From an uncultured SAR86 cluster bacterium (lineage in GTDB: Bacteria; Pseudomonadota; Gammaproteobacteria; Magnimaribacterales; Magnimaribacteraceae), in the NCBI GenBank assembly GCA_902517565.1, contig CABYCU010000005.1:1-64000 (forward strand): a stretch of 64,000 bases of DNA. Direction: 5' to 3'. Below the pieces are notes generated by a model. The model was not told the DNA's origin. It saw nothing but the letters and a program-made list of their open reading frames with translations, and ran no database searches. The position numbers and the translations under genes were made by a program. Of this stretch, positions 1-62,158 are shown piece by piece. The stretch's first letter is position 1. Each line of letters starts with the position of its first letter.

Positions 1-2234
1 CTTTTCTCGCTTGCTTGAACTGCCTCTACTAAATAATTTTCTAAGTCTGTTTTCTTATAGACAACTTCCATTGCTCTCCCTCCCAGCACATAGGAGGGTC
101 TAACCACAAGAGGAAAACCAACTTCTTCAGAGACTTTCATTGCTTCTTCAACACTAGAAGCAATTCCATTGGGGGGTTGCTTTAATCTATGCTTATTAAC
201 AAAGTCCTGAAACCTACCTCTATCTTCGGCCAAATCTATTGAATCAGGTGAAGTGCCTAGTATTGGTACACCATTTTTTTCGAGTTCTTGAGCAATTTTT
301 AAAGGAGTTTGACCACCATACTGAACAATTACACCTACTGGATTTTCTAGCTCAGTTATGGAAAGCACATCCTCAACGGTGATTGGTTCAAAATACAATC
401 TATCTGATGTATCGAAATCAGTAGACACTGTCTCAGGATTACAATTTACCATTATCGTTTCATAGCCCTCTTCTCTTAATCCTAGAGAGGCATGAACACA
501 ACAATAGTCAAACTCTATGCCTTGGCCTATTCTATTAGGACCTCCTCCTAGAACCATTATTTTTTTATTTTGAGTAACGTTAGCTTCACATTCTTCTTCA
601 TAAGTGGAGTACATGTATGCAGTTGAGGACTCAAACTCAGCCGCACATGTATCAACCCTTTTATAAACAGGAGAGATATTTAACGCCTTCCTTAGATTAC
701 GAATTTCTTCTTCTGAGCTCTTTACTAATTTTGCTATTCTGGAATCAGAAAAACCTTTTCTTTTCAAACTGTATAAAAGGTCAAAATTTAATCCTGATAG
801 TGAGTAATTTTGTAGATTGAGCTCTTCTTCAACTAAGTCTTTTATTTGAACCAAAAACCAAGGGTCGATTTTAGAAAATTCAAAAACTTCTTCTACGGTC
901 AGGCCTTTTCTAAAGCCGTCAGCTACAAACCATAATCTATCAGGGCTTGGAATACTAATTCTCTGTTTGAGAGTTTCAAATTCATCTTCTTCACTAAAGA
1001 TTGGGTCAAGACCATCTCGACCTGTCTCTAGGCCTCTAATAGCTTTTTGAAGAGATTCTTGAAAAGTTCTTCCTATGGCCATAACTTCGCCTACAGATTT
1101 CATTTGAGTAGATAAGACTGGATCAGTTTGAATAAACTTTTCAAAGTTAAATCTAGGAATCTTTGTAACAACATAATCAATAGAAGGTTCAAAAGAAGCT
1201 GGAATAACTCCACCGGTTATATCATTACTCAATTCGTCTAATGTATAACCAACAGCTAGCTTTGCAGCTACTTTTGCGATTGGAAATCCAGTTGCTTTTG
1301 ATGCTAAAGCAGAAGACCGTGAGACTCTTGGATTCATTTCTATAATCAACATCTCACCATCTTCGGGATTTATCGTAAATTGGACATTGGATCCTCCCGT
1401 TTCAACACCGACCTCACGAAGAATATCTATAGAGGCATTTCTCATAATCTGATATTCCTTATCGGTAAGTGTCTGTGAAGGGGCTACTGTTATTGAATCA
1501 CCAGTATGAACGCCCATAGGATCTAGATTCTCAATGCTGCAAACAATAATACAGTTATCATTTTTATCCCTTACAACTTCCATTTCGTATTCCTTCCACC
1601 CGCCAAGAAACTTATCAATAAAGATCTCTGAAGTTGGAGAAAGTTCTAGCCCTCTTTTACAGATTTCATCAAATTCTTCTACATTGTAAGCAATGCCCCC
1701 ACCTGAACCACCCATAGTGAAGTTTGGTCTTAAAACACAAGGAAAACCTATTCTTTTAAGCAATTCATGAGCCTCATCAGGATTATGAGCTAAACCTGAC
1801 TCTGGAACTTTTAATCCAATCCTTTCCATAGATGCAGCAAATAATTCACGGTCTTCAGCTTTATCTATAGCCTCTTTAGTCGCTCCTATCATTTCTACAT
1901 TATGTTTTTCCAATATGCCTCTGCTATCTAAATCAAGTGCGGCATTTAAAGCAGTTTGACCACCCATTGTTGGTAATAAGGCATCTGGTTTTTCTTTTTC
2001 TATTATTTTTTCGATCGTTTCCCAATGAATTGGCTCAATGTATGTAGCATCAGCCATACTAGGATCTGTCATAATTGTTGCAGGGTTCGAATTAATCAAT
2101 ATTACCCTGTAACCATCTTCCATTAGAGCCTTACAAGCCTGAGCACCAGAGTAATCGAATTCGCATGCCTGACCAATGACAATAGGACCTGCTCCTATGA
2201 TCAATATGGAATCTATATCTTTCCTTCTAGGCAT
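1..2234 (-). CDS. carB: carbamoyl-phosphate synthase large subunit (3' end outside window)
   Basis: CarB makes carbamoyl phosphate from bicarbonate, ATP and the ammonia delivered by CarA, feeding pyrimidine and arginine synthesis in the cytoplasm. The frame is open from the ATG at 2234 to the window edge, giving 744 codons of a protein that is usually about 1070 residues. The N-terminus carries the family opening (RRKDI, then [17 protein letters not shown]). The visible part covers the first ATP-grasp (carboxyphosphate) domain, the oligomerisation domain and the start of the second ATP-grasp domain, where [15 protein letters not shown] is seen about residues 708-722. The rest of domain two and the allosteric MGS-like domain lie outside. 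The start overlaps the end of carA by 8 bp, so the two are translationally coupled in one operon with pyrF. Confidence 0.97.
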
Positions 2235-3342
2235 TATTAATTATATTGTCCTCGAATTTATCAAATAAATATTTCAAATCATGAGGTCCTGGGCTAGCTT
2301 CAGGATGGCCTTGAAAGCTAAAGAATGGCTTAGAAGTATGCTCTATGCCCTGAATAGTACCGTCAAATAATGACTTGTGAGTAACTTGAACTGTTCTTGG
2401 AAGAGAATTTTCATCTACAGTAAAACCATGGTTTTGTGAACTAACAGAAACTTTCATATTCTTTAAATCTTGAACAGGATGATTTGCCCCATGATGACCA
2501 AACTTCATCTTAGATGTTTTACCACCTAACGATATAGCTAAGAGTTGATGGCCTAAACAAATACCAAACAAAGGCATATCTATGTCTATTAATTTTGTGA
2601 TTGTGTCGATTGCATACTTACAAGGTTCAGGGTCTCCCGGGCCATTGGAAAGAAAGACGCCATCAGGATTGAATTTCATTATTTGTTCGAAAGTAGTTTT
2701 TGCAGGAAAAACTTTCAATGAATATCCTCGATCAGCAAGAATCCTTAAAATATTATTTTTTATTCCAAAATCCAACACAGCAATCTTAGAGGTTGATTCT
2801 TCCTTTATCCCTCGCCATGTTCCCTCGCACCATTCATAGCTTTCTGGAGTGGTTACTTCTCTAGCTAAATCCATTCCAGATAACCCTTCAAATGCTTTGG
2901 CTTTATTGATAGCACTATCCAGGTCTATCGAATCTCCTGCAAAAATAGATGCTGATTGAGCTCCTTTTGTTCTTATTATCCGGGTTAATTTTCTTGTATC
3001 GATATCAGAGATTCCTAATATATTATGTTTCTCTAGGTATTCCGATAAATTGTCTTCTTTCCTCCAGTTACTTTCTGTTTGGGAAACAGATCGTACAACT
3101 AATCCCGAACACCATATATGATTTGATTCAGTATCTTCATGATTTGTTCCGGTATTGCCAATGTGAGGATAAGTTAAAGTTACAATTTGTTTGGCATAAG
3201 AAGGGTCAGTCAAGATTTCTTGATAGCCAGTCATAGATGTATTAAATACTATTTCTCCGTTGATCTCACCTGAAGCACCTATGCTTTTGCCCTCAAAAAC
3301 TGTTCCATCAGCCAAGGCAAGAACTGCTTTTTTCTTATTCAT
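2227..3342 (-). CDS. carA: carbamoyl-phosphate synthase small subunit (glutaminase)
   Basis: CarA hydrolyses glutamine and channels ammonia to CarB. At 371 residues it has the usual family length. The N-terminal CPSase small-chain domain ([29 protein letters not shown]) is followed by a class I glutamine amidotransferase domain with the nucleophile elbow [11 protein letters not shown] and the His/Glu pair in GHPEASPGP near the C-terminus. The ATG overlaps the pyrF stop in an ATGA (4 bp), and its own end overlaps carB by 8 bp. In many gammaproteobacteria carA follows dapB; here dapB is elsewhere (48523-49263) and pyrF takes its place. Expression should follow the promoter and attenuator upstream of pyrF. 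Confidence 0.98.
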
Positions 3343-4022
3343 GAAATTTCTTCATATATTTTTTCAAGGGCATTCCTGGGATTATCTGAACCTGTAATTG
3401 GCCTTCCTATCACCAAGTAATCAGATCCATTTTTAATAGCATCATAAGGAGTTGAAACTCTACTTTGATCACCTACGTTAGTATTAATTGGTCTTATTCC
3501 TGGAGTTACTGTTAAGAATTCTCTGCCAAACTGCTGTTTTATGGAAGCAGTATCGGAGGCAGCACACACAACTCCATCTAATCCACTATCTTTTACCAAA
3601 ACTCCAAGTCTTGAAACTTGATCAGATATATTTTCAAGTCCTATTTCAGGAAGTGATTCGTTAGATAGGCTTGTAAGTACAGTAACTCCAATCAATAGAG
3701 GCGGTTTATCATATCCTTCTATACCCCTCTTCGCAGCTTCCAGCATCTTCGTGCCGCCTGAGGCATGAACATTTACCATCCAAACTCCCAGATCTGCTGC
3801 CGATTTTATAGCCTTATAGACAGTGTTTGGAATATCGTGAAATTTTAGATCGAGAAATACTTCAAAATTCAGATTTTCGAGTTCTTGAATTATTTTAGGG
3901 CCTATCGAAGTAAATAACTGACTCCCTACTTTTAACCTACAAATCTTTGGGTCAAGTACTCTAGCAATATTAATTGCTTCTGAATATTCAAGATCTAATG
4001 GGATAATAATCTTATTTTCCAT
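3339..4022 (-). CDS. pyrF: orotidine 5'-phosphate decarboxylase
   Basis: PyrF converts OMP to UMP, the last step of de novo pyrimidine synthesis. The 227-residue protein begins [12 protein letters not shown] (substrate strand one) and contains the active-site block [13 protein letters not shown] near residues 56-68 with the Lys/Asp charge network, plus TPGIRP and YLVIGRPIT for phosphate binding; all are standard for the short bacterial TIM-barrel form. It is the first gene of a pyrF-carA-carB operon. The leader between 4023 and about 4137 holds a strong terminator-like hairpin and a 35-codon reading frame, so regulation by transcription attenuation is likely (see separate entries). Confidence 0.97.
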
Positions 4023-24742: not shown

Positions 24743-25144
24743 CTAAGAAATGACTTCTTTAATCGAATCTAGGAAATTAATTTTAGTATCTTTGGAAGCA
24801 CAAACCATTTCTATAGAAGGCATTTTATTAATGAGCGATTTATTAAGAAAATGAAGGTGTTTAGGTAATTCCTCATCTAAAAGAAATATATAAGAAATGT
24901 TATTGAGTTCATCAGAATTTATTATTTTATGAAGTTTAGGTTTTCCTAATGAGCAAGCAAGAGTTTTAAAAAAATTTTCTATTTCCTTTTCAGGCAATTT
25001 TTTTTCTTTTTCTCCATACAAAAAGAGACAATCATTATCGATTAAGTACATCTTTTTTGTTGTATGGGGCTCATCTTGAGCAGCTCTTTTCTTCCAAGAA
25101 CTGATACCTAGGTGATTTAACTTTTCTTCTAAATTCTCGTGCAT
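24743..25144 (-). CDS. holD: probable DNA polymerase III psi subunit
   Basis: The 133-residue protein has little obvious similarity except its N-terminus, LEEKLNHLGISSWKKR, which matches the start of E. coli psi (QLGITQW.LR), the part that contacts the clamp loader. The rest has an alpha/beta pattern of strand-like segments (KMYLIDNDCLFLYG, ISYIFLLDEEL) that fits the single-domain psi fold. Its place just upstream of rimI, as in E. coli, is the strongest support. Psi is fast evolving and often missed; a chi subunit is present at 16570-17013. If this is wrong, it is an unknown protein. Confidence 0.7.
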   Translation of the reverse strand: MHENLEEKLNHLGISSWKKRAAQDEPHTTKKMYLIDNDCLFLYGEKEKKLPEKEIENFFKTLACSLGKPKLHKIINSDELNNISYIFLLDEELPKHLHFLNKSLINKMPSIEMVCASKDTKINFLDSIKEVIS

Positions 25145-45263: not shown

Positions 45264-45986
45264 TTATAATTGAAAATTTGATTTATCACCATATCGTCTT
45301 GATCTACTTGAATACTCTTTCAGAGCTTTATCGAATTGAATATCATCAAAATCAGGCCAAAGAAGATTAGGAAAATATAACTCAGAATAAGCCAGCTGCC
45401 ATAGCAGGAAATTACTTACTCTAATCTCGTTACCAGTTCTTATACAAAGATCTGGATCTTCAAATCTTGCCGTAGAAAGATATGAATTGAATTCTTGTTC
45501 AGTAATATCAGTTTTATCAGAAGCCTGTATTTTATTAATCGCATTAACTATATCCCATCTTCCACCATAGCTGGCTGCCACAACCAAATCTAATTTTTTA
45601 CTCTTTTCATCACAATGAGTGAGTTCTTCAGATCTTTTCATTTGTCCGATCAAGTTATCATCAAAAAGCGTTAGATCTCCAATAAAGTTCAATTGAACTG
45701 AATTTTTTATTAGATTAGGAACTTCTTCTTCAAGGGCTGTATTTAGCAGTTTCATAAGAAGACTAACCTCTTCTTGAGACCTGCCCCAGTTCTCACTACT
45801 AAATGCGAACAGAGTTAGGGTAGATAGACCTCTTTTTACAGCAAACTCAACTGCCTCTCTTGCTCTTTCAACACCTTTTTGATGCCCTGCAACTCCTGGA
45901 AGGCTTCTGTCAGTTGCCCACCTATTATTGCCATCCATAATAATGGCAACATGCTTTGGCAGAGATTCATTTGCGTTGCCTTCCAT
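45264..45986 (-). CDS. uppS: undecaprenyl diphosphate synthase
   Basis: UppS makes the C55 lipid carrier for peptidoglycan and LPS by adding isopentenyl units in cis. The 240-residue protein has HVAIIMDGNNRWA with catalytic Asp18, GHQKGVERAREAV, FAFSSENWGR and the C-terminal DLCIRTGNEIRVSNFLLWQ plus LYFPNLLWPDF. It lies 9 bases after frr and 2 bases before cdsA. Confidence 0.97.
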   Translation of the reverse strand: MEGNANESLPKHVAIIMDGNNRWATDRSLPGVAGHQKGVERAREAVEFAVKRGLSTLTLFAFSSENWGRSQEEVSLLMKLLNTALEEEVPNLIKNSVQLNFIGDLTLFDDNLIGQMKRSEELTHCDEKSKKLDLVVAASYGGRWDIVNAINKIQASDKTDITEQEFNSYLSTARFEDPDLCIRTGNEIRVSNFLLWQLAYSELYFPNLLWPDFDDIQFDKALKEYSSRSRRYGDKSNFQL

Positions 45987-45995
45987 TGTAAGAAT

Positions 45996-46553
45996 CTAGA
46001 AGTCTAAAAGTTCTTTTTCTTTAACATTCAATGCCAAATCAACCTTCTCTACGTATAAGTCAGTAAGTTTCTGTATTTCCTCTTCACCTTGACGCTCTTC
46101 GTCTTCAGAAATTTCCTTTTCTTTAAGAAACTCCTTTAGTTGAGAATTTCCTTCGCGCCTGACGTTTCTTACAGAAACTTTTGCATTCTCTGCTTCAGCT
46201 TTAGCTTTTTTGATGAAGTCTCTTCGTGTCTCTTCTGTTAAATCTGGAAGTATAACTCTTATAGTATCTCCAGAAGTGGCTGGGTTTAGGCCAAGGTCAG
46301 ACTCAACTATGGATCTCTCTATTTGCTGAGCAACACCCTTTTCCCATGGAACAATGGCTAAAGTTTTTGCATCTTCTATTGAAATACTAGCAACTTGGTT
46401 TAGAGGCGTGGGTTTGTCGTAATAGTCAACTCTAATGCTATCTAGCAATGACGGAGTAGCTCTTCCAGTTCTAATCTTTTTAAAGACTGTTTCAAGGGCA
46501 CTTAAACTTTTTTCCATGCCTGACTTCGCATCTTCAAGTATCTCGTTTAACAT
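45996..46553 (-). CDS. frr: ribosome recycling factor
   Basis: RRF splits post-termination ribosomes with EF-G. The 185-residue protein shows the whole family pattern: KIRTGRATPSLLDSIRVDYY, PLNQVASISIEDAKTLAI, NPATSGDTIRVILPDLTEE and the C-terminal long helix KEFLKEKEISEDEERQGEEE. The ATG follows the tsf stop with no gap. In most bacteria pyrH lies between tsf and frr; it is not here. Confidence 0.97.
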   Translation of the reverse strand: MLNEILEDAKSGMEKSLSALETVFKKIRTGRATPSLLDSIRVDYYDKPTPLNQVASISIEDAKTLAIVPWEKGVAQQIERSIVESDLGLNPATSGDTIRVILPDLTEETRRDFIKKAKAEAENAKVSVRNVRREGNSQLKEFLKEKEISEDEERQGEEEIQKLTDLYVEKVDLALNVKEKELLDF

Positions 46554-47408
46554 CTAACCTTCTATTTGAGACATAACTTCAGTAGCAAAATCTACTTTTT
46601 CAACTTCTATGCCCTCACCAACTTCATATCTTGTAAAGCTTAAAATATTTGCACCATTATCATCAAGCAATTTACTAATCTTTTGATTTGGATCCCTAAC
46701 GAAATCTTGCTCTATCAGGCTCACTTCCGATAAAAATTTAGAAACCTTACCTTCAATCATTTTTTCAATGATTTCAGGGGGTTTTCCAGAACCTTCAGAC
46801 TGAGCTTTAGATATTTCTCTTTCCTTATCAACAATCTCCTGAGGTATATCAGAAGGAGAAACTGCCATAGGATCTGTTGCAGCGGCGTGCATGGCTATGT
46901 CATTTGCAAGAGATTCAGTTCCTCCATTTAATGAAACGATGCAGCCGATCTTATTATTGCTATGCAGATAAGAACCCGTCACAGCAGAATCTTCAGTTTT
47001 TGCGACTCTCCTCACTACAATATTTTCACCAAGCTTCTGAACTAATTTTTCTCTATTTACTTCAATACCTTCTTCTAATAACTGCTCTAAAGGCTTTTCA
47101 GAGTTATCTGCATAAGTTTTAAGGGTTTCTTCCGTAAAGTTAATATAAGATTCATCTCTTGCTACGAAATCTGTCTCGCAATTTACCTCTATCATAAAAG
47201 CGGTTTTACCATTATTTAATATACCTATAAGACCATCAGCAGCAGATCGTCCTGATTTTTTACTTGCTTTTACCCCGCTGGTTTTTCTGAGTTCTTCAAT
47301 AGCTAAATTTATATCGCCGTTTGCTTCTTCTAGAGCTTTCTTACAATCCATGAGGCCTAAGCCTGTTTTTTCTCTAAGTTCTTTTACTTGTGAAGCTGAA
47401 ATAGTCAT
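46554..47408 (-). CDS. tsf: elongation factor Ts
   Basis: EF-Ts exchanges GDP for GTP on EF-Tu. The 284-residue protein has the N-terminal UBA-like domain (VKELREKTGLGLMDCKKALE), the EF-Tu contact TDFVARDESYINF, and HAAATDPMAVSPSDIP. A GAGGAG ribosome binding site overlaps the end of rpsB, 2 bases before the ATG-coding stretch, so the two are coupled. Its stop codon abuts frr. Confidence 0.97.
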   Translation of the reverse strand: MTISASQVKELREKTGLGLMDCKKALEEANGDINLAIEELRKTSGVKASKKSGRSAADGLIGILNNGKTAFMIEVNCETDFVARDESYINFTEETLKTYADNSEKPLEQLLEEGIEVNREKLVQKLGENIVVRRVAKTEDSAVTGSYLHSNNKIGCIVSLNGGTESLANDIAMHAAATDPMAVSPSDIPQEIVDKEREISKAQSEGSGKPPEIIEKMIEGKVSKFLSEVSLIEQDFVRDPNQKISKLLDDNGANILSFTRYEVGEGIEVEKVDFATEVMSQIEG

Positions 47409-47410
47409 AT

Positions 47411-48355
47411 TTACTCCTCGGATTTATTATCTTTATTTTCTGCGGAAATAGGTGTTTTTTCTTCAAGATCAGGGACTTCTTCAGATTCACTTGTATCTTG
47501 GACAGGTTTATCTAAATCCGCTCCTTCAACATCCTTCGTTTGCGATTGCGAAGCTTGCGAAGTGCTCTCTTCGTCAACTGGAGTTTTTCCTTCTTCATCT
47601 GAAAAATCTTTTGTATCAACCTTTCTGACTATTGCTGGTCCAGATTGAGGTTCTTCCTGCTTCAGTCCTGTTGCCGCTTCTGAACCTTTAAGACATGCGT
47701 CTGCAACAGCCTCAGTAAATAGAGCTATAGATCTAATAGAGTCATCATTACCAGGAATAACATAATCTATTCCTTCAGGATTGCTATTTGAATCAACCAC
47801 TCCAACTATAGGTATGCCCATTTTACTAGCTTCAGAGACAGCTATAGACTCTCGATTCACATCTATAATGAATAACGCATCAGGGAGACCGCCCATTTCA
47901 GTTACTCCACCAATAGATTTTTCTAATCTGTCTATATCTCTTTGAATCTTTAAGCCTTCTTTTTTTGTAAGCTTACTGAAGGTTCCGTCTTCCTTCTGCC
48001 TTTGTAGGTTTTCTAATCGAGTAATAGAAGAACGAATAGTCTTGTAGTTAGTTAACATACCTCCAAGCCATCTTTCGTTGACATAAGGCATAGAACATCT
48101 GTTGGCTTCATTCTTAATAATTGCTGTTGCAGTTCTTTTGGTGCCAACAAAAAGTATTTTATTGTTCTTAGCAGCCACACCTTCAATAAACTTAAGAGCA
48201 GGTTTGATCATCTCAACCGTATGTTCTAAATTTAAAATGTGGATTTTATTCCGAACTCCAAAAATATGTTGCTCCATTTTTGGATTCCAGTATTTTGTTT
48301 GGTGCCCAAAGTGGACACCTGCTTGTAGCATTTGTTCTAGCGATATTTCAGCCAT
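47411..48355 (-). CDS. rpsB: ribosomal protein S2 with long acidic C-terminal tail
   Basis: S2 is a small-subunit protein needed for S1 binding and initiation. The start is taken at ATG 48355 because it reads [20 protein letters not shown], the family N-terminus, and has AGGAG 5 bases upstream; a more distal ATG (48421) would add 22 unrelated residues. The S2 core ([49 protein letters not shown]) ends near residue 228. About 85 further residues follow, dominated by Glu, Asp, Ser, Thr and Gln, giving 314 in total against 241 in E. coli. The tail is in frame, repeat-poor and probably disordered. The gene has a long structured leader. Confidence 0.96.
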
Positions 48356-56234: not shown

Positions 56235-56589
56235 GGGGGCGAACTGGCTTCGACAGTAGATATAAAACCTCAAGTGCATGTCGAGAAGGTAATAATTCTC
56301 GTTAAAAAATTATTGCAAACTTGTTAGTTGGCGAAAACGCAGACTACGCTCTAGCCGCTTAATTGGCTAGCTGTCCTTGGTAACGTGCTCGTGCGCCTCC
56401 AAAGACAGACGATCTCACGAGATGCTGAAGTTGCTCTTCTCATTAGTAATTTCTTAAGAATAAATTGAGATCGTCTTTTAATCCCTGTTTATCGGGTGTC
56501 AAAAGATTAAATTAATAGATAAAACTAAACATGTAGATCTTGTGGCAGAGTACTAGTGGACGCGGGTTCAATTCCCGCCGCCTCCACCA
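56235..56589 (+). ncRNA. ssrA: transfer-messenger RNA
   Basis: The 355-base RNA rescues stalled ribosomes with SmpB. The 5' GGGGGCG pairs with CGCCTCC before the encoded ACCA at 56586-56589, forming the tRNA-like acceptor; the T-arm is GCGGG/CCCGC with loop TTCAATT (56562-56578), and GGCTTCGACAG follows the 5' arm as in other tmRNAs. The tag frame runs from the resume GCA at 56315 to TAA at 56360-56362 and encodes ANLLVGENADYALAA, with the usual ALAA degron. At 15 residues it is five longer than the E. coli tag. No intrinsic terminator follows; a coding gene starts 19 bases later. Confidence 0.97.
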
Positions 56590-56608
56590 AAAGTGCTATC
56601 ATATTTTC

Positions 56609-57094
56609 ATGGTAGAACAACAAATTCTTATTACAATAGCAACGCTTGCCGTAACTCTAGCTGGATTTTCAGGTGTAGTGGGTATTTTTTCTAAAGAACT
56701 TTCTACTATTAAAAGTTATAAGCTAGAAACTTTATTATTTCAAAGTGGTGTGGCTTTATTTGCCTCTCTTACTACTCTAATTGCTTCTCAGATAGGTGGA
56801 GGTTTAAAGAATGAACTAGAGTTTAGAGAGTTTTGGGTTATCTCTAGTTGGGTTTACATAATCATTACAGTAATAGCCTTAATTTTTGCTACTATCGATA
56901 TAATCAAAACTAAGAGGTACAAGAAAATTAATTACGATATTCTGTTTTATTTTTCATTCTTCTTGGTGATAGCATTACTCGTTTTTAATGCGCTATATAT
57001 TCAAGATGCCTATTTGTTTCATATCGCATTAGAGTTAAATCTAGCTTTTGCTTTCATATCTTTTTACACACTAGTAATGCCTTCAAAAGAGTAA
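56609..57094 (+). CDS. small four-helix membrane protein of unknown function
   Basis: This 161-residue protein starts at ATG 56609, because any longer frame would run through the 3' end of the tmRNA. It has four hydrophobic segments (about residues 5-25, 42-62, 77-97 and 110-155 with a short break) and opens VEQQILITIATLAVTLAGFSG. I know of similar short LAGFSG-type proteins in marine bacteria but no function. No ribosome binding site is visible, and expression may depend on read-through from the tmRNA promoter. Confidence 0.75.
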   Translation: MVEQQILITIATLAVTLAGFSGVVGIFSKELSTIKSYKLETLLFQSGVALFASLTTLIASQIGGGLKNELEFREFWVISSWVYIIITVIALIFATIDIIKTKRYKKINYDILFYFSFFLVIALLVFNALYIQDAYLFHIALELNLAFAFISFYTLVMPSKE

Positions 57095-60788: not shown

Positions 60789-61049
60789 ATGGCAAATATT
60801 AAATCAGCAATAAAAAGAGCACGACAAAATGTCAAAAGAAATGCTCTTAAAAGCTCTCAAAGAGCCTCTACACGTACGGCAGTTAAGTCTGTTTTAAATG
60901 CTATTGAGGAAAAAAATAAAGACTCTGCAAAACAAGCTCTAACCATCGCTGAAAAAACCTTAGATGCAATGGCAGGAAAAAAAGTTATTACAAAAAATAA
61001 GGCTTCAAGAACAAAATCAAGACTCTCTAAGAAAATCAAAAATCTTTAG
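60789..61049 (+). CDS. rpsT: ribosomal protein S20
   Basis: S20 binds 16S rRNA early in small-subunit assembly. The 86-residue, highly basic protein opens MANIKSAIKRARQNVKRNAL, the family start, with a later AGKKVITKNKASRTKSRLSK. It is monocistronic, with its own promoter, divergent from the glycosyltransferase gene and overlapping the end of proB by 4 bp on the other strand. Confidence 0.98.
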   Translation: MANIKSAIKRARQNVKRNALKSSQRASTRTAVKSVLNAIEEKNKDSAKQALTIAEKTLDAMAGKKVITKNKASRTKSRLSKKIKNL

Positions 61050-62158
61050 CTCAGAACTAAGTTGTTTCTGTGAATCACTTCTTCTTGAGAAAGATAACCT
61101 AACGAATCCCCTATCTCATCAGAATTAAGACCTTTAATCTTATCTACTTCTTGATTATTAAAATTTGTAAGTCCCCTAGCAACTTCTCTGCCATCAGGGC
61201 TCAAGCAGCTAACTAAATCACCTTTATTAAATGTACCCATTACCTCGATTATTCCGACAGAAAGCAAGCTCTTTCCTTTGGCCTGCAAAGCATCGCATGC
61301 GCCTGAATCCAACATAATTTGGCCAGAAACTGAACCAAAAGAGGCAATCCAAAGCTTTCTGGACTGTAAGGAAGATTTATCAGTGAAAAGCTGAGTACCT
61401 ACCTCCTCTTTATTATATATCTTTAATAAAGTATCTTTCTCCAAACCACTTGCAACCCATGTCATGGCTCCAGAGTTAAGAGAAGTTTTGGCCGCTTCAA
61501 TTTTAGTTCTCATGCCTCCTCTGCCTAGAAGTCCAGACGAGCTAGTTAGCTGTTGAGATAAATCTATTTTTTTATCATCTAGATTAATTCTTTCTAAAAG
61601 ATGAGCGTCTATATTTGTGCTTGGATCATCAGATAAAATCCCATCTTGATCGGTTAACATTATAAATTTATCAGCTCTTATTAGACCAGCTAGTGCAGCC
61701 CCTAACCTATCATTATCACCAAAAGAGATCTCTTCGGTAGCAACGCAATCGTTTTCGTTAACAATCGGAATAACACCTAATTCAAGCAGTGATTCCACGG
61801 TATTCTTGGCATTTAAATATCTAGTTCTATTGGCAATATCATCATGTGTAATCAATACTTGTCCTGTTGTATAACCAAAGTCCATAAATATCCTTTGATA
61901 TATATCTGAAATGCCTCTTTGGCCGACAGCAGCGCAAGCTTGTAATTTAGCTAGAGTTTCTGGTCTATTATCGAAACCCAAGTCACTCATTCCTTTAGCA
62001 ATAGCCCCAGAAGATATAATTATTACTTCTTGCTCATTCTTTTTTAAAAAGTCTATCTGCGAAGCCAGCTGACTAATAAAATTTTCATTTATTCCGTCTT
62101 GATTTCCAGAAACTAAACTGCTTCCAGCCTTGACTACCCATTTCTCACTCTTAGTCAT
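61046..62158 (-). CDS. proB: glutamate 5-kinase
   Basis: ProB phosphorylates glutamate in the first step of proline synthesis and is feedback-inhibited by proline in most bacteria. The 370-residue protein has the amino-acid kinase domain (WVVKAGSSLVSG, VIIISSGAIAKGM, NENDCVATEEISFGDNDRLGA, LTDQDGILSDDPSTN) and a C-terminal PUA domain (about residues 275-365). It overlaps obgE by 8 bp, the obgE-proB order of Pseudomonas and others; proA is not in this window. Confidence 0.97.
   Translation of the reverse strand: MTKSEKWVVKAGSSLVSGNQDGINENFISQLASQIDFLKKNEQEVIIISSGAIAKGMSDLGFDNRPETLAKLQACAAVGQRGISDIYQRIFMDFGYTTGQVLITHDDIANRTRYLNAKNTVESLLELGVIPIVNENDCVATEEISFGDNDRLGAALAGLIRADKFIMLTDQDGILSDDPSTNIDAHLLERINLDDKKIDLSQQLTSSSGLLGRGGMRTKIEAAKTSLNSGAMTWVASGLEKDTLLKIYNKEEVGTQLFTDKSSLQSRKLWIASFGSVSGQIMLDSGACDALQAKGKSLLSVGIIEVMGTFNKGDLVSCLSPDGREVARGLTNFNNQEVDKIKGLNSDEIGDSLGYLSQEEVIHRNNLVLS

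Follow-up and report, generated by a model that had tools for sequence, protein, structure and literature searches.

The window analysed here, a stretch of 64,000 nucleotides on contig C5, raises the question of how a bacterium forms UDP when pyrH, the gene for UMP kinase, is missing from its usual place. On the minus strand the TAG stop codon of tsf (46556-46554) and the ATG start codon of frr (46553-46551) are zero bases apart, and these six nucleotides (46551..46556) mark the site which, judged from the sequence and from a comparison of relatives, is that of pyrH in most gammaproteobacteria. The first-pass annotation of this DNA had reported that the two codons are adjacent, that pyrH is missing and that the remaining neighbours stand in the standard order, and all of this is borne out, the last part by our reading of the open reading frames. 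The genes tsf (elongation factor Ts, 284 aa, 46554..47408) and frr (ribosome recycling factor, 185 aa, 45996..46553), both taken from the list of reading frames and identified by comparison with relatives (47 in the case of frr), lie between rpsB (ribosomal protein S2, 47411..48355, with its ATG at 48355; the list starts at an upstream GTG, 48421) and uppS (undecaprenyl diphosphate synthase, 45264..45986, next after frr), the latter two named by reading and all four on the minus strand. From rpsB-tsf-frr-uppS through the lpx genes to lpxB the order of the frames, as read, is otherwise standard. An AGAAGG motif within the end of tsf (46558..46563, minus strand) ends 4 nt ahead of the frr ATG and could serve as its Shine-Dalgarno sequence; similar motifs precede frr in 21 of the 43 rows of relatives compared, and many rows have none.

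Absence of pyrH from the SAR86 family of the window

The genome containing the window (1.21 Mb in 37 contigs, 74.6% complete) has SAR86 cluster bacteria, which are free-living, as its nearest named relatives, and belongs to f1 of the genome family labels f1 to f4 used here. With the Frr protein of the window as query we obtained 47 loci of relatives, of which 28 are SAR86-type (72-94% protein identity); 27 of these contain both tsf and frr, and one (L114) begins within frr. The first-pass annotation had suggested comparing the junction in relatives, and it proved to be closed in all 27 of these loci (estimated tsf-frr gap of 0-8 nt, no PyrH match), which argues that it is not an accident of assembly. 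In 18 of the remaining 19 loci PyrH is matched and tsf and frr are separated by about 0.66-1.06 kb; L134 shows neither feature. In the order itself, each of the 20 PyrH-bearing loci contains all three genes, and the tsf-frr gap there is about 0.66-0.72 kb.

The annotation had also considered that pyrH might have moved elsewhere. A search of the window's own genome with a PyrH profile returned a single match, a 416-aa frame of 36.3 bits which was read as aspartokinase. As this genome is only 74.6% complete, the family-wide absence is the stronger evidence: PyrH was not found over the curated family cut-off in any of the 35 f1 genomes, most of which are 50-90% complete and which include the well-assembled G004 (one contig of 1,591,815 bases, 95% complete), G024 (96%), G019 (93%) and G015 (90%). 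At E ≤ 0.001 the same 35 genomes gave weak matches only, of up to about 40 bits, in frames which by their length and matched region would be aspartokinase and ProB; the window itself carries a ProB-like AA_kinase-PUA protein (61046-62158, profile match). The own-genome and family-wide searches speak against a moved pyrH: the SAR86 family of the window has lost the gene altogether.

In the order as a whole (61 genomes searched, 26 of them at least 90% complete), PyrH scored over the cut-off in 20 genomes, all from f2, f3 or f4, and the 26 more complete genomes are divided into 17 with PyrH and nine without. Family f3 is itself split, with PyrH in four of its nine genomes and tsf and frr as neighbours, 9 to 100 nt apart, in the five that lack it. 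The junction was closed in all nine pyrH-less f1 and f3 genomes tested. The single f4 genome without PyrH (G052) is also without Frr, which makes an assembly gap likely.

Further afield, PyrH was found at E ≤ 1e-20 in 356 genomes of a class-wide sample of 370 gammaproteobacteria; the sample includes five genomes of the window's order, three of them with PyrH and two without, and outside the order the count is 353 of 365. The 12 pyrH-less outsiders comprise three genomes of 0.3-0.4 Mb (family f20) and nine others, some of which have pyrH-bearing congeners and may represent assembly gaps. Close relatives thus generally lack pyrH and distant ones seldom do, so that the significance claimed for the loss by the first-pass annotation stands. 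No title reporting the absence of pyrH in SAR86 was found among the matches listed in the literature searched, and the main text of a purine/pyrimidine paper covering SAR86, as far as it was available, contains neither pyrH nor UMP (PMC11698098). Locus L134 (JAPOOX010000107.1, 'APA_bin_45') comes from a gammaproteobacterium outside SAR86 and has tsf and frr about 61 nt apart; its genome (3.4 Mb) has no PyrH over the cut-off and a full-length Cmk, so that the closed tsf-frr junction occurs in a second lineage too, probably through an independent loss of pyrH. Two genomes of 1.0 Mb from one genus (G283 and G425, loci L257 and L259) likewise gave no PyrH match.

A UMP kinase should still be needed. 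The window encodes pyrF (OMP decarboxylase, 3339..4022, PF00215, 190.6 bits) directly before carA (small chain of carbamoyl-phosphate synthase, 2227..3342, PF00988 and PF00117), both on the minus strand (2227-4022) and with carA overlapping the end of pyrF by 4 bases. The presence of PyrF and CarA means that the cell synthesises UMP de novo, at least as far as the PyrF step is concerned, and must hence form UDP from it. The first-pass annotation had tied the arrangement of pyrF and the car genes to the missing pyrH; pyrF does stand directly before carA, while nothing linking this to the loss of pyrH was found.

Remnants and altered survivors of pyrH in a second family

Traces of the gene are left at its old site in three (G048, G054 and G051) of the five f3 genomes without pyrH. 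In G048 the 48 nt between tsf and frr read MPAYKRKLLKLSL followed by a stop, and the spacer peptide MPAYKRKLLKLS matches the PyrH start of the congener G057 in nine of 12 residues. The 100-nt spacer of G054 encodes a PyrH N-terminus (10/16 residues) and, in another frame, a PyrH C-terminus (6/11), which points to an internal deletion of pyrH. In a first remnant test of 20 pairs, only G048 against G057 beat all 300 shuffles. A frame-aware shuffle test was run after this one, on G048 and G054 only: none of 20000 base shuffles reached the match of G048, of the G054 start or of the G054 end to G057 or to G042, and against G036, for which the first two stretches were tested, one of 20000 did so for G048 and none for the G054 start. 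G051 retains the terminal 13 nt of its congeners' pyrH, with a score equalled by 3 and 2 of 300 shuffles, and this stub would by itself be weak evidence of a remnant; the spacers of G039 and G060 contain no convincing trace of pyrH.

Well-sequenced genomes without an orthologue, relatives with the gene at the same site and traces of its deletion have all been found, which together mark true gene loss. The first-pass annotation had inferred that pyrimidine genes were reshuffled in this lineage; the remnants in related lineages indicate instead that pyrH was deleted in place, and repeatedly so in the second SAR86 family. Because congeners fall on both sides of the line between presence and absence of pyrH, we arrive at a minimum of four losses for SAR86 (f1; G051; the group of G039, G048 and G054; and G060), a number that depends on genus labels and on a tree with weak inner support. 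The sister relation of f1 and f3 is itself weakly supported (22/40), and a single ancestral event is therefore not claimed.

The four PyrH proteins that survive in f3 have a mean identity of 42% to those of f2 and f4, and of 38.5% to six other proteobacterial PyrHs, versus 57% and 59% to the same six for f2 and f4, respectively. Tsf and Frr of f3 are no more distant from the outgroup than those of the other families (51.5% identity versus 50.2% for f2 and 45.6% for f4), and the PyrH stem measures 2.10 substitutions per site in f3 versus 0.22 in f2 and 0.21 in f4. Nine of eleven tabulated PyrH positions are unchanged in f3. The two exceptions are Thr138, which all 23 other proteins retain but which is Leu or Ile in the four f3 proteins, and Phe142, for which all four have Leu. 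According to PMC12404492, the residue corresponding to Thr138 is strongly conserved and makes contact with the uracil. PyrH was thus already changing where it is still present: the f3 protein is strongly accelerated and, as we infer, under relaxed constraint. As the other tabulated residues remain and the frames are open, it may still be functional or act on a different substrate. An origin of f3 PyrH in another phylum was rejected, as IQ-TREE groups f3 with f2 and f4 (97/96). FastTree, run with partly truncated sequences, placed it outside (0.55), and its identity to records from a plasmid collection was at most 42.4% among the best 12 of 55. Vertical, accelerated descent is the preferred, though not certain, interpretation of these proteins.

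Candidates for the UMP kinase

Cytidylate kinase (Cmk) is the best candidate substitute for PyrH, because it is present at full length in the more complete pyrH-less genomes and, when plasmid-borne, allows pyrH to be deleted in E. coli. The Cmk of the window's own genome (G000:C1:6889-7524) matches PF02224 over the curated cut-off with 214.7 bits, covering positions 1-205 of 211, and has as its best solved relative 1kdo_A (E 1.8e-53), a cytidylate kinase from E. coli. The profile search of the order gave one strong Cmk match per genome, and in the two f1 loci inspected cmk lies beside genes read as aroA and rpsA. In genomes of the order that are at least 90% complete, full-length Cmk was found in 9/9 without and in 15/17 with pyrH, and its presence thus barely discriminates between them. 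Eight of the 35 f1 genomes (72-88% complete) had neither a full nor a partial Cmk. Six of the nine pyrH-less outsiders tested have Cmk, the three without it being the genomes of 0.3-0.4 Mb. In three relatives from the order that do have PyrH (G043, G047 and G058) no full-length Cmk was found, and G043 (one contig, 93% complete) and G047 are the two exceptions at 90% completeness or above; the reverse loss, with PyrH kept and Cmk lost, may also occur. PyrH counts as essential in E. coli, and the available part of PMC3386227 describes that pyrH can be deleted there in the presence of plasmid-borne cmk, which was recovered from a library of 4097 pooled E. coli clones, and that the resulting strain grew without added inducer, ascribed by the authors to leaky expression or carry-over. 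Overexpression of cmk suppresses the inactivation of PyrH, and Cmk has low UMP kinase activity (PMC3603445, available in part).

We aligned 37 Cmk sequences (18 from f1, eight from f3, four from f2 and none from f4, six from pyrH-less outsiders, and E. coli), the order being represented by those 30 of its 50 over-cut-off genomes that came with loci. Ten pocket positions were compared (14, 36, 40, 41, 101, 110, 131, 132, 185 and 188), with Ser101 presumably being a pocket residue. The other nine were taken from the accessible part of PMC3603445, which lists S36, Y40, R41, R110, R131, D132, D185 and R188 as contacting CMP or CDP; these eight are kept in 18/18 f1, 8/8 f3 and 4/4 f2 sequences. Nine of the ten positions are identical across all 37 sequences, that of E. 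coli among them and regardless of whether pyrH is present; the tenth, position 14, varies independently of the presence of pyrH. A residue switch towards UMP was thus looked for at ten pocket positions of 37 sequences and not found. The only f1-wide change beside a pocket position is A100T, which adjoins Ser101 and occurs in 18/18 f1 and 0/19 other sequences. In the Cmk sequences of L257 and L259, E. coli position 38 is occupied by Lys and ADGRDMG is replaced by ANGRDMG, beside base contacts. Bit scores of Cmk in f1 and f3 showed no greater rise than the scores of Adk and Tmk, and Cmk-specific conservation as the mark of a new duty was not seen. With its base contacts unchanged, we can only infer that Cmk acts as UMP kinase.

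The first-pass annotation had proposed that another nucleoside monophosphate kinase does the job, possibly one of the eukaryotic UMP/CMP type; the general proposal is supported, the specific one is not. PF00406 had exactly one match in 50 of the 61 genomes, none in 11 and never more than one, and the 30 of these 50 proteins that were aligned (25 from f1, five from f3) all carry G(F/Y)PRT(I/L)PQA, which we take to be the adenylate kinase pattern. A eukaryote-type UMP/CMP kinase was rejected on these grounds, with no second ADK-family match in any of the 61 genomes and no UMP/CMP-type motif in the aligned proteins. A second Cmk or Tmk was rejected as well: Tmk gave at most one strong match per genome in the search of the order, and those weak second matches that were read are shikimate-kinase-like (~163-200 aa) or dNK-like (~230 aa) proteins, relatives of which occur in pyrH-bearing families too, with two further short kinase-like frames (L176/L188 and L177) among them. 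In the window's family a second shikimate-kinase-like protein of 163-164 aa (L200:4059-4550, L199:4008-4502) is separate from an aroK-like gene that lies beside an aroB-like gene (names by reading). Searching the five pyrH-less f3 genomes with PF13207 at E ≤ 0.05 returned only Adk, Cmk, three frames of shikimate kinase size, two of which were read, and frames of at least 635 aa. Besides shikimate kinases and dNK-like proteins, the matches listed for the general P-loop models of these kinases, PF13238 included, comprised large ATPases and a few short kinases, and no extra nucleoside monophosphate kinase was detected among these with the models used. Two reading frames of the window (56540-57094, plus strand, 184 aa; 24743-25144, minus strand, 133 aa) had no Pfam match at E ≤ 0.001.

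Overall, the reading we favour, and consider reasonably probable, is that pyrH was lost in f1 and repeatedly deleted in the second family, and that Cmk most likely converts UMP to UDP. The weak UMP kinase side activity of Cmk would have become sufficient, through higher dosage or through changes outside the base-contact residues; with Cmk covering the UMP step the constraint on PyrH would have relaxed, and the relaxed gene would then have been deleted several times. An unrecognised enzyme outside the PyrH/amino-acid-kinase, ADK, Cmk, Tmk and general P-loop models could instead phosphorylate UMP in SAR86. This would fit a necessary step that has no PyrH to perform it and a Cmk without visible adaptation at its base contacts. 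Against it count the presence of Cmk, which is sufficient in E. coli, and the PF13207 matches described above for the pyrH-less f3 genomes; we regard such an enzyme as possible but rather unlikely. The broader statement that free-living SAR86 phosphorylates UMP without PyrH, either by a dual UMP/CMP Cmk with unchanged contacts or by an undescribed UMP kinase family, and that the second family presents the loss in stages (accelerated PyrH, remnants, nothing), can be made with considerable confidence.

It seems improbable that a known broad-range kinase (PPK2, the dNK-like protein of ~230 aa, Tmk or Adk) has taken over. Some PPK2 enzymes phosphorylate several nucleoside monophosphates, and PPK2 is present in 37 of the 61 genomes of the order and in 8/9 of f3, but in only 13 of 35 in f1 (two partial), where Tmk, Adk and Cmk were found in 25, 26 and 27, and in 0/3 of genus g5; with a distribution in f1 below that of housekeeping genes it was rejected as a universal substitute. 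In the window's family, where it is patchy, an example is G004:C1:711478-712149. The dNK-like kinase, recognised as such by reading the second PF02223 match, is missing from all nine f3 genomes, including the five without pyrH, and the 30 aligned Adk proteins look canonical. A PyrH that is present after all, either moved or too divergent for detection or missing from incomplete assemblies only, would agree with most f1 genomes being 50-90% complete, but is very hard to reconcile with assembled junctions without the gene in 27/27 loci, with its absence from the f1 genomes G004, G024, G019 and G015, with a model sensitive enough to pick up the accelerated PyrH of f3 at E 1.4e-79 or better, and with remnants at the old site in f3, and we give it hardly any credence.

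Comparison with known systems and significance

The same missing enzyme and the same proposed substitute are known from E. coli, where cmk (mssA) is a multicopy suppressor of pyrH (smbA), plasmid-borne cmk permits the complete deletion of pyrH, and the loss of PyrH is tolerated through the UMP kinase side activity of Cmk (PMC3386227, PMC3603445, parts of both). That case is engineered and plasmid-borne, whereas in SAR86 the loss is natural and family-wide, with a single strong Cmk match per genome. The eukaryotic UMP/CMP kinase of the ADK family is similar in that UMP and CMP would share a single enzyme, but the SAR86 candidate is a bacterial-type Cmk. The three f20 genomes of 0.3-0.4 Mb, presumably those of endosymbionts, likewise gave no PyrH at E ≤ 1e-20; endosymbionts with such tiny genomes live on host nucleotides, and the three are also without full-length Cmk, whereas the SAR86 window carries PyrF and CarA.

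PyrH is described as an antibacterial target without detectable eukaryotic homologues in the available part of PMC12847342. Its absence from an abundant marine lineage means that the requirement for it can be bypassed in nature, with Cmk as the candidate bypass, and that metabolic models of SAR86 should not demand the PyrH reaction, nor should pyrH be relied on as a universal marker. The accelerated PyrH and the deletion remnants of the second family are intermediates in which to study how an essential gene becomes dispensable, and the finding reaches beyond one junction: free-living bacteria have more than once deleted, in place, a gene that is normally essential.
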